From Segetibacter sp. (GTDB lineage Bacteria; Bacteroidota; Bacteroidia; Chitinophagales; Chitinophagaceae): a DNA stretch of 35,437 nucleotides. Below, piece after piece: positions 5,012 to 8,417 of this stretch (position 1 is the first letter of the stretch; each line of letters opens with the position of its first letter). The DNA is taken from NCBI GenBank assembly GCA_028288505.1, contig JAQBNN010000205.1, forward strand, positions 1 through 35,437. Reading direction: 5' to 3'. Below the pieces are notes generated by a model. The model was not told where the DNA came from. It ran no database searches and saw only the letters and a program-made list of their open reading frames with translations. A program made the position numbers and the translations under genes.

Positions 5012-7111
5012 CTATTTCTTTTGCAATTTCCCTCTCTTTAAAGACGAGTGATAATCGTACCCGTAACCAAAAAGCTTTCCTTTAACGAGGTTTTTGCCTG
5101 TTTTAGATTTATCAATTGAAGCCATCCTTTCTTTCAAAAAATTGATCTCACCTTCAAGTGTATCTATTTTATTATTCAAATTCTGTTGAAGGTTCCTGCT
5201 TGTTCGGTTGAGCGTCGCAATTTCTTTATCTTTTATCAATAGCTCCGACTGCTTCTGTTTTAAATCATTCTCCTTGTTTCTCAACTGTTGTGAAATCGTT
5301 TTTCTTTCATTATTAAAATTAGAAATCTCCCTCAAATTTTTTTCATTGTCGCTAATGTGAGTTCTCTTAATAACTTCTGTTTCCTTATCTTTTGCTTTTA
5401 CTACTTCTGCCAGCTTATTAGTCCTTAATTTTTCTTCGTCAACATTTTTAGTTGCAATCTGTAGTTCATCTTTTAATCGATTGTTTTCTGCAACCAGCAC
5501 GGAATCTGAAGCGTTTATATCAGTTAAATTTGAAGTGGAGTCGAGTTTAGTATTCAAAAATTTTCCTTTATCCTTTTGGCCAAAAGGTTTTGGATGTTGA
5601 TCAATTGCACTATCTAATCCTGATAGTGTGTCTTTTTTTAACTCGATTGTATTGTTCAATTCGGTTAATACACTGTCTTTTACTTCAATATCTTTATCCA
5701 AAGTTTTTTTATACAATGCTGTCCCAGCATAAATAAATGAACATATTAAGACAGCAGCTACAATTAATATTGCTGATCTTCTTTTGGCTTTCCTGTGGGC
5801 TAAACGTAATGCTGCTTTTTTTCTTCTTTCTTCTCTGTCAGTTTTTACTAAGGTTACAATTACATCATGCGTCAATTCTATAGTTTGGCCTTCCTCTCTA
5901 ATAAAGTATTTTCCTCGAAGGACATTAATGCCTGGTTTTATTTTTTCGTCTATTTCAAGTGTCGAATATTTTGTTCGGAAACCTTCGTCAGTTATAAGTT
6001 CTTCTTCAATAAATTCTTGTATCGGATTAATTGCTAGAACGGCTTTAGACTGATCATGTGTATTTAAAGCTTTTAAACTTTCTTCAAGTACTTCGTTATA
6101 TAAAGACCTTAGCAAAACGCCTTTGGGATATTTATCAAGGAATGTGGAAGAAACTTTTTTTAATCCTTGATCATTTTTTTCCTTGTCAAGGAAGGTGCAA
6201 ACCTGGCTTAATAATGACGGCTCTACTTCAAAAGTATCTTGCAATCCATATTTGGTAGGTTGTAAAGAGTTTCCTGCCTCTTCAGTAATAAGCGATACAA
6301 TTTTCTTTGCTTCAGACAAGTCAATAGCATTAGGCCATGAATTTAGAATTACGTCTAATCCTTGCTCCGATGTCATGGCTCTCAATCTAAACCTGGAGTT
6401 CTTTGCAGAAGGTATCCTTGCAGTAATGCTTTCAATCTCGGGTAGAAAATCTTCTCTGAAAGCAAAGAGAACTTTACACTTTTGCTTGTTATAATTGTAA
6501 TTAAGCTTCAGGTTATTATTTACGATCTTATCCTTTATTTGCTTAGGCATTGAGTTTTCAATAAGGTCGGATAACTGCTGGATCAGGTTTTCCAATTTCT
6601 CCTTCTTGAATAAGCTGCTTTTATTAGCAAGAGTGAAAATTTCTTCGAACTGGTCGAATACAAGTACTGGAGTAACTACTTCCCACAAGCTTTCCCTATG
6701 GAAATACTCCCACAATGTTTCTGTATTATTCGGGTAGCTTTCTGCTCTAAATTCATCCATTGAAGTTGAATCCTTATTAGTTGCCTTTACATCCATTGCA
6801 TCCTTAATGGCTGCCTTTACTTGTGTGATAAGATCCGGGCAATTATTGGTGAATTCTAATCTAATTCTTATTGGTAAGCAATAATCTTCCCTTAGTTTAG
6901 GAAATACTCCGGCATTTAATAAAGAAGTTTTGCCGGTACCAGATTTTCCAAATACAATGGTTAAAGCATTAGCTTTAATAAGCTTATACAAAGTCTTTAT
7001 TTCTTCACCTCTTCCAAAAAATAAATTCGTCTGGTCCTCTGTATAAGCGTTTAAACCAATGAAAGGTGAAGAAGTTTCTTTTTTAGGATTGATTGAAGTT
7101 TCTGCAATCAT
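5012..7111 (-). CDS. nSTAND1-type P-loop NTPase with transmembrane segment and C-terminal coiled coil
   Basis: SSPFIGLNAYTEDQTNLFFGRGEEI..., Walker A GKSGTGKTS, Walker B VLVFDQFEEIF, TM segment SAILIVAAVLICSFIYAGTAL, then a long heptad-rich charged tail. Confidence 0.85.
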   Translation of the reverse strand: MIAETSINPKKETSSPFIGLNAYTEDQTNLFFGRGEEIKTLYKLIKANALTIVFGKSGTGKTSLLNAGVFPKLREDYCLPIRIRLEFTNNCPDLITQVKAAIKDAMDVKATNKDSTSMDEFRAESYPNNTETLWEYFHRESLWEVVTPVLVFDQFEEIFTLANKSSLFKKEKLENLIQQLSDLIENSMPKQIKDKIVNNNLKLNYNYNKQKCKVLFAFREDFLPEIESITARIPSAKNSRFRLRAMTSEQGLDVILNSWPNAIDLSEAKKIVSLITEEAGNSLQPTKYGLQDTFEVEPSLLSQVCTFLDKEKNDQGLKKVSSTFLDKYPKGVLLRSLYNEVLEESLKALNTHDQSKAVLAINPIQEFIEEELITDEGFRTKYSTLEIDEKIKPGINVLRGKYFIREEGQTIELTHDVIVTLVKTDREERRKKAALRLAHRKAKRRSAILIVAAVLICSFIYAGTALYKKTLDKDIEVKDSVLTELNNTIELKKDTLSGLDSAIDQHPKPFGQKDKGKFLNTKLDSTSNLTDINASDSVLVAENNRLKDELQIATKNVDEEKLRTNKLAEVVKAKDKETEVIKRTHISDNEKNLREISNFNNERKTISQQLRNKENDLKQKQSELLIKDKEIATLNRTSRNLQQNLNNKIDTLEGEINFLKERMASIDKSKTGKNLVKGKLFGYGYDYHSSLKRGKLQKK

Positions 7112-7121
7112 TTTAAATGAT

Positions 7122-8417
7122 TTAAGAAAGTTTAAGTATTTCTTTTACCCTATCAATAAATGCATTATCCATCTTGCCCTCGGGCACAGGTTCAATGCTT
7201 AAATCCTTGTAATAGTCTTTAATAATTTTGTTGTCCAGGTCTGTGTTGTCAATTACTATTGGCATTAAATACTTGTCTGCTTTACCGCCTTTTAATCTAT
7301 ACCTGTAGGTATCAGTGGCTCTCAACCATTCTTTAAGTACATACCTGTCTTCTTGAACCAGGCAGTTTTTTGAAATTAGTGGAATGAAAAGATCTGCATT
7401 CCTGATATTGTCTATTATATCATCTTCGTAGTTGTCTCCTGCTCGTAAACGTTCTTTATCGTACCAGCAAGTGAGGTTACTAACCTGCATTAAAGCTTGT
7501 TTTACATTTTCTACGGCCGCAGCGTCTTTATGCGTATAACTAAGAAAAATTACTTTGGGTTTTACTGTTGTTGGATTAATCAGGTTCCAATTATCCGTTA
7601 GTTCATCAATAAATTCCTTTGTGTTTCCTTCGTACGTTTTAGCATTATAATTTTTGAAAAACTCGTATTGCTTCTGGCGATGATTAGATGCATCATTAAC
7701 CACAATTATCTTATTTCTACGTTTTACCCAGTCATTCATTCTTTCATTCGATATTACTCTAAGAAAGAACCTGATCAACCAATCTGGTTGACTACAACCC
7801 AGGAAAAGCAAAGTTTTATTCTTAAAAGCATTCAAGATGTCAGGAGCATTAACAAGCATTCTTTCCTTAAAAGAAGTAGTAAACTCAAGCATTTCTTCAT
7901 CACGTAGAGCAGGATCTACTGATTTAAAAGAACCAAATACATTAAAAATTACCGGAGAGCTTAAGGTTTCAATGTCTTCGCAATCTTCAAAAGTTGAACA
8001 GATAGAAAAGTCAATTGCTTTCGCTGATTGTCCCTTTGACTTCAGGATCTGCTTTTCTATAAGCGTACTATAAACGGTAGTATTAGTAAAAAAGTTGAGC
8101 TTCTCAATTTGCAACAGCTTGTGCAATGCGGGAAAATGAGCGTCTATTTTGCCTGCCATTCGTTTTAAGCTGCTAATAATTGTATCAATATCCTGCCCTT
8201 GTTGCATTAGGTAAGAAATAGTTTCTGAAAGCGTATTCGTTGAATTTTCTTGAATATCATTTTCCTTTTCAAGTTGTCGTTTCAAAAAATTATCCACTGT
8301 TACTTCCTGTTCTTTCAGCTTAAACATTTCATTGCCTATTATAGGTATCACACTCCCTTCAGCAATTTTTTCCATTAGCACATCCCAACTAATCTTCGAG
8401 GATAAATTATTGATCAT
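7122..8417 (-). CDS. SIR2-like domain + C-terminal TIR domain protein
   Basis: N-terminus VIPIIGNEMF and LLFLGCSQPDWLIRFFLR resemble SIR2-like folds; C-terminus KVIFLSYTHKDAAAVENVKQAL...CWYDKERLRAGDNYEDDIIDNIRNADLFIPLISKN...KEWLRATD is a TIR domain. Confidence 0.82.
   Translation of the reverse strand: MINNLSSKISWDVLMEKIAEGSVIPIIGNEMFKLKEQEVTVDNFLKRQLEKENDIQENSTNTLSETISYLMQQGQDIDTIISSLKRMAGKIDAHFPALHKLLQIEKLNFFTNTTVYSTLIEKQILKSKGQSAKAIDFSICSTFEDCEDIETLSSPVIFNVFGSFKSVDPALRDEEMLEFTTSFKERMLVNAPDILNAFKNKTLLFLGCSQPDWLIRFFLRVISNERMNDWVKRRNKIIVVNDASNHRQKQYEFFKNYNAKTYEGNTKEFIDELTDNWNLINPTTVKPKVIFLSYTHKDAAAVENVKQALMQVSNLTCWYDKERLRAGDNYEDDIIDNIRNADLFIPLISKNCLVQEDRYVLKEWLRATDTYRYRLKGGKADKYLMPIVIDNTDLDNKIIKDYYKDLSIEPVPEGKMDNAFIDRVKEILKLS

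Follow-up and report, generated by a model that had tools for sequence, protein, structure and literature searches.

The window, a 35,437-nucleotide stretch of Segetibacter sp. DNA, carries two adjacent genes that raise the question of whether they form an immune receptor and, if so, which of their parts would sense and which would kill. A preliminary description had presented them as an operon coding for a SIR2-like–TIR protein and an nSTAND1 NTPase. Both open reading frames run as it had drawn them, its domain assignments score above the Pfam cut-offs, and the operon holds up, with both genes on the minus strand, 10 nt apart and in an order kept in relatives. The features are as follows.

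7122..8417, minus strand: gene 1, SIR2-like and TIR, 431 aa (open reading frame; Pfam SIR2_2, TIR_2)
7632..8387, minus strand: degenerate SIR2-like domain, about residues 11-262, with a ThsA/DSR2/KomC-like fold and the GAGxS, TTNxD and HG motifs lost
8067..8084, minus strand: NTTVYS at the sirtuin TTNxD position, residues 112-117, catalytic Asn absent (alignment)
7929..7946, minus strand: FNVFGS at the sirtuin HG position, residues 158-163, catalytic His replaced by Phe (alignment)
7233..7556, minus strand: TIR domain, about residues 288-395 (Pfam TIR_2; family profile against NADase TIRs of the PDB)
7329..7331, minus strand: putative catalytic Glu363 of the TIR domain (Glu in 32/32 family members)
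7112..7121, minus strand: 10-nt gap from the gene 1 stop to the gene 2 start (sequence)
5012..7111, minus strand: gene 2, nSTAND1 NTPase, transmembrane (TM) helix and variable tail, 699 aa (open reading frame; nSTAND1)
5792..7066, minus strand: nSTAND1 NTPase and helical/winged-helix-like module, about residues 16-440 (Pfam, alignment, model)
6923..6949, minus strand: Walker A, GKSGTGKTS, residues 55-63 (P-loop Gly/Lys columns invariant in 20 homologues)
6641..6667, minus strand: Walker B, VLVFDQFEE, residues 149-157 (DQFEE invariant in 20 homologues)
5714..5770, minus strand: single TM helix, residues 448-466 (hydropathy 2.48)
5015..5713, minus strand: predicted extracytoplasmic coiled-coil tail, residues 467-699 (model helices 531-584 and 589-668)

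The two genes are paired far above chance. A broad scan for gene 1 over one genome per species (85,462 species) recovered 29 public loci, a set that includes the identical L052 and L056, the close L039 and L040, and three relatives counted before (L036, L045 and L061). Gene 1 is conserved over its length, and gene 2 directly follows it in 28 of the 29, L037 being the sole exception. These loci fall in the Bacteroidota, Acidobacteria, Gemmatimonadetes, Aminicenantes, Proteobacteria and Campylobacterota, with record taxa including Chitinophagaceae, Bacteroidales, Acidobacteriaceae, Gemmatimonadetes, Aminicenantes, Alphaproteobacteria, Methylococcales and Sulfuricurvum; the pair is also present on a Paraburkholderia megaplasmid. 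Among 100 relatives, G001, G005, G014 (two copies) and G017 carry both genes as direct neighbours, with their order unchanged. Across 395 Bacteroidota genomes, an nSTAND match lies within about 1.5 kb of 7/7 full-length gene-1 loci retrieved, a count that takes in the window itself (L066) and a locus with both genes broken (L069), versus 1/23 TIR-only loci (hypergeometric about 4e-6, calculated by hand for this sample). In all seven, gene 2 comes immediately after gene 1. The co-occurrence on which the preliminary description had staked its proposal is thus retained across distant phyla. Gene-1 and NTPase identities correlate closely (r=0.97, 351 pairs), which says only that partners have not been exchanged, as expected of neighbours inherited together. 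The SIR2-like–TIR/nSTAND1–TM pair is a genuine and widespread two-gene membrane STAND/TIR module.

Several individual loci depart from the common layout. At L037 (6179-7480), an intact-looking gene 1 lacks gene 2 downstream and is followed by a BatA/vWA-type gene, and at L069 (G270) both genes are disrupted by frame changes, either as pseudogenes or through assembly errors. One subfamily features a small membrane protein gene directly before gene 1 (L012 2924-3835, minus strand; L062 6135-6932); the two products are 63% identical, and no Pfam match was found for them. The window's own genome (G000) holds a second gene 2 on a short contig, 48% identical in the matched part, alongside the tail of its own gene 1, which is cut by the contig end. 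Full-length gene 1 occurs in 3 of 10 same-genus genomes, the window's own included; a clean empty site was not found among four same-genus genomes, whose gene order differs to the left of a TIGR00266-type gene.

Gene 1 matches SIR2_2 at residues 113-260 (2.5e-8, above the Pfam cut-off). Its structure model (mean pLDDT 85) has ThsA as its best fold match, followed by DSR2 and KomC, and in the superposition on ThsA the SIR2 domains coincide and the TIR domain takes the place of ThsA's SLOG. We compared the SIR2 motifs of 32 gene-1 family members with those of 20 ordinary SIR2_2 proteins from the same phylum. The G-x-G loop, T-x-N-x-D and H-G are present in nearly all of the latter, whereas in the gene-1 family the GAGxS loop position reads (I/V)G-x-(E/D) or similar, the catalytic His is absent from 32/32 members (Phe, Tyr, Leu or Met instead) and the catalytic Asn from 30/32, with N-x-D retained in L058 and L063. 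In Avs5, Asn110 and the Asp are essential, whereas the protein stays active with NG at the HG position (PMC12931631). Because both Asn and His are lost, and the Asn is required in Avs5 (PMC12931631), the motif comparison points to the SIR2-like domain of gene 1 being a pseudoenzyme. We regard it as highly improbable that the domain is still enzymatic despite these changes, which would give gene 1 two NADases: the activity of Avs5 with NG (PMC12931631) and the two members with N-x-D speak for such an arrangement, but the family-wide loss of His, the near-universal loss of an Asn that Avs5 cannot spare and the altered GAGxS loop speak against it. Active SIR2/sirtuin NADase status was rejected for gene 1, the TTNxD Asn and the HG His not being present.

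The TIR domain offers a different picture from the SIR2-like one. TIR_2 matches residues 290-395 (4.8e-16, 59.8 bits against a Pfam cut-off of 28), and the best PDB matches of the family profile are enzymatic bacterial TIRs, e.g., AbTIR (5e-11) and TIR-APAZ proteins. The putative catalytic Glu is invariant in the family, and the Asp of WxD and the Gly of the next loop are mostly retained among the 32 members. Some TIRs serve as scaffolds only, and gene 1's could likewise be a structural assembly module rather than an enzyme; the invariant Glu, the largely retained Asp and Gly and the proximity of the profile to enzymatic TIRs make this a poor prospect. Only the TIR of gene 1's two domains is likely to be a NADase, judging from these residues. 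Thus, of the two NADase effectors in the preliminary description, the TIR survives as a prediction, based on the fold match and the Glu, and the SIR2 falls with its family-wide loss of the active site.

Gene 2 has a strong nSTAND1 (PF20703) match at residues 16-280 (6.4e-29, 102 bits against a cut-off of 27). A sequence search of the PDB gave no match for it, and a fold search gave only generic AAA+/ORC-type matches plus weak ones to Avs4 and RPP1. The NTPase is followed by a TM helix in every gene-2 protein of sufficient length, nearly always a single one (L064 has more than one). The 20 residues before the helix in the window's protein include 10 K/R and 1 D/E, and those after it 4 K/R and 5 D/E; greater positive charge before the helix than after it is a trait of the family. 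By the positive-inside rule, this excess would keep the NTPase in the cytosol and the tail outside, so that the C-terminal part of gene 2 should lie beyond the membrane, a placement drawn solely from charge. WD40 repeats outside the membrane, which it would entail for some members, would be unusual.

The tail itself is highly variable. It is a coiled coil or of low complexity in the window's clade, and the coiled coil of the preliminary description is seen in the structure model, where both tail helices have low-to-middling confidence. Other tails contain WD40 repeats (L051, L052, L057, L058 and L063; weakly L062), TPRs (L048) or BspA-type LRRs (L064). L038 and L046 have 82% identity in gene 1 and 80% in the NTPase, compared to 35% in the tail; the tail of the window's gene 2 is 12-21% identical to those of relatives with which its NTPase shows 38-57% identity. 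Such a pattern, with the tail diverging far faster than the NTPase, is what one would expect of a ligand-binding part undergoing diversification, and loose constraint alone could also produce it. The membrane-tethered STAND partner proposed earlier is upheld as an nSTAND1 protein with a TM helix, but the notion of a tether needs refinement, as the helix lies between the NTPase, on the cytosolic side, and a variable sensor that is probably extracytoplasmic. Near the C-terminus of gene 2, an octapeptide, FGYG(Y/H)DYH, is shared by the window (5048-5071, residues 681-688), L036 and L045, whose tails are otherwise unalignable; it is perhaps a sorting or binding peptide.

A profile search with gene 2 uncovered variant loci with other upstream genes. 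All four STAND partners contain a TM helix; the upstream gene codes for a degenerate SIR2 fused to EAD11 in G271 and G216, and for an intact SIR2 alone, with no TIR, in G350 and G127. In G271, the next gene upstream codes for an EAD11-CHAT protein whose HFSGHG and NSC motifs are caspase-like, and the STAND partner has a long LRR tail; in G216, the STAND gene is followed by a CHAT gene whose own EAD11 match is weak. Portions of PMC7159879 describe EADs as homotypic adaptors that recruit effectors in trans. L163 5730-11776 (G271) presents consecutive genes for an EAD11-CHAT protease, a degenerate SIR2-EAD11 and an nSTAND-TM-LRR protein, which make up a membrane LRR-STAND-adaptor-caspase-like cluster, and L165 1609-6084 (G350) and L149 1-3572 (G127) present an intact SIR2 and then an nSTAND-TM. 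In the SIR2 tree, the two intact STAND-paired SIR2s branch between ordinary SIR2s and the degenerate clade, which has support of 100/96 with long branches that call for caution. The pairs of G350 and G127 are possibly the ancestral form. In the simplest story, an active SIR2 effector coupled to a membrane STAND lost its activity and was kept as an adaptor when a TIR, or EAD11 and CHAT, took over the killing.

Against PADLOC and NCBIfam, neither gene had a convincing match, only weak partial ones (for gene 2 in PADLOC, AriA, mad8 and PDC-M26A), and the open-access papers searched on SIR2-TIR fusions and on nSTAND with TIR and phage do not describe the pair. AVAST/Avs systems, such as Avs5 and Avs4, share with it a STAND switch, a variable C-terminal sensor and a NADase or other death effector. 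However, Avs is one polypeptide with an N-terminal effector, whereas here the effector is in a separate gene; gene 2 belongs to the nSTAND1 clade, Avs5 to nSTAND3; and, unlike in Avs, a TM helix lies between switch and sensor. Avs membership was rejected, the pair consisting of two genes rather than one protein and matching no PADLOC Avs model. The closest fold match, Thoeris ThsA (SIR2-SLOG), has an active SIR2 NADase and a SLOG sensor, whereas gene 1 has a dead SIR2, with a TIR replacing SLOG. Gene 1 was rejected as ThsA for its lost SIR2 motifs, the absence of a SLOG match and the TIR in its stead, and as ThsB for a TIR fused within a larger protein and a ThsB model match of 24.9 bits over 70 residues. 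DSR2 and KomC share the SIR2 fold but possess the catalytic His, mutated for several solved structures (H171A, H146N); in gene 1, the His is naturally lost and a TIR added. The nSTAND1/EAD conflict systems, as portions of PMC7159879 and PMC8195603 present them, have in common with the pair nSTAND1, effectors acting in trans via adaptor domains and TIR as an effector; the passages searched in Kaur et al. 2020 and 2021 (PMC7159879, PMC8195603) contained neither a degenerate SIR2 in the adaptor role nor this pair of genes. By analogy only, metazoan Toll-like receptors share the logic of outer LRR, TM and TIR, and the APAF-1 apoptosome that of a STAND with WD40 recruiting a protease; unlike in either, the STAND here stands between the TM helix and the TIR partner, and we do not claim homology of the whole. 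The pair is a new variant within STAND-type immunity, a member of neither Thoeris nor Avs, with a mechanism that we infer.

The genomic neighbourhood gives a mixed answer on defence. A patatin phospholipase, akin to PADLOC phospholipase effectors, is coded near the pair in seven loci and is convergent and directly downstream of it in five of them:

L038 3570-4709: patatin-like phospholipase
L039 10508-11638: patatin-like phospholipase
L040 10506-11324: patatin-like phospholipase
L043 10553-11689: patatin-like phospholipase
L046 10655-11794, minus strand: patatin-like phospholipase
L063 4467-5600: patatin-like phospholipase
L036 1-1089: patatin-like phospholipase

Further neighbours are a prok_STING-domain gene and a TPR-S gene (L036), TIR-TPR-S and CHAT-TPR-S genes (L063), and TPR-S and CHAT genes (L113). 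The proximity to defence genes envisaged in the preliminary description is therefore found in several relatives but not in the window, where the pair is flanked by housekeeping genes. The defence-type neighbours of relatives, together with the patchy presence of the pair, support a defence role without proving it. Prophage origin was rejected, relatives being absent from the viral contigs and phage records searched.

The reading that we favour, and hold to be probable, is an immune-type receptor at the membrane, made of two proteins. Gene 2 would act as an inner-membrane STAND switch whose single TM helix links a cytoplasmic NTPase to a variable external sensor; gene 1 would be the cytosolic output arm, whose dead sirtuin-fold domain docks or oligomerises on the STAND and carries the TIR NADase. 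Once the outer part detects a trigger, whether a phage that adsorbs or injects, a damaged envelope or another cell, the STAND would exchange nucleotide and assemble, collecting gene-1 subunits and bringing their TIR domains together, and this proximity would lead to NAD+ cleavage and growth arrest or cell death. Here we infer the topology, the contact between the two proteins, the NADase activity, the trigger and the anti-phage role.

The same machine might instead serve regulated cell death or the recognition of kin or self. Its variable outer domains and the two divergent copies per genome fit neighbour recognition equally well, the window's locus lies outside a defence island, and the variants include CHAT and EAD parts; but the patchy presence and the patatin, STING-domain, TIR-TPR-S and CHAT-TPR-S neighbours look like defence islands, and we judge this reading unlikely. 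A Thoeris-like scheme, with the TIR making a cyclic ADP-ribose isomer and the SIR2-like domain binding it as a sensor, would draw on the best fold match over both domains being ThsA and on the capacity of TIRs to make such signals. We think it very unlikely, as the SIR2 catalytic residues are lost, the TIR sits where SLOG would be, the PADLOC ThsB match is weak and a downstream effector is not conserved.

The best reading of the whole family is a membrane STAND receptor acting through a dead-sirtuin adaptor on an exchangeable death effector. Most of the prokaryotic STAND immune sensors that have been studied well consist of a single chain and act within the cell. Somewhat short of an even chance, in our estimation, is the broader proposal that these bacterial proteins form a new class of transmembrane STAND receptor, in which a ligand-binding domain outside the cytoplasm, exchangeable between LRR, WD40, TPR and coiled coil, would drive a cytosolic STAND, and a sirtuin-turned-dead adaptor would take a TIR NADase or, via EAD11, a caspase-like protease, with the intact-SIR2 pairs of G350 and G127 ancestral and the attachment of a new effector preceding the change from enzyme to adaptor. 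The dead sirtuin would offer a clear example of an immune enzyme that has become an adaptor, one that a few point mutants could test. A family-wide membrane STAND with a fast-diverging outer domain would give bacteria a means of sensing attacks from beyond the membrane, and would parallel Toll receptors in its outside-in logic and the apoptosome in its adaptor-caspase logic.
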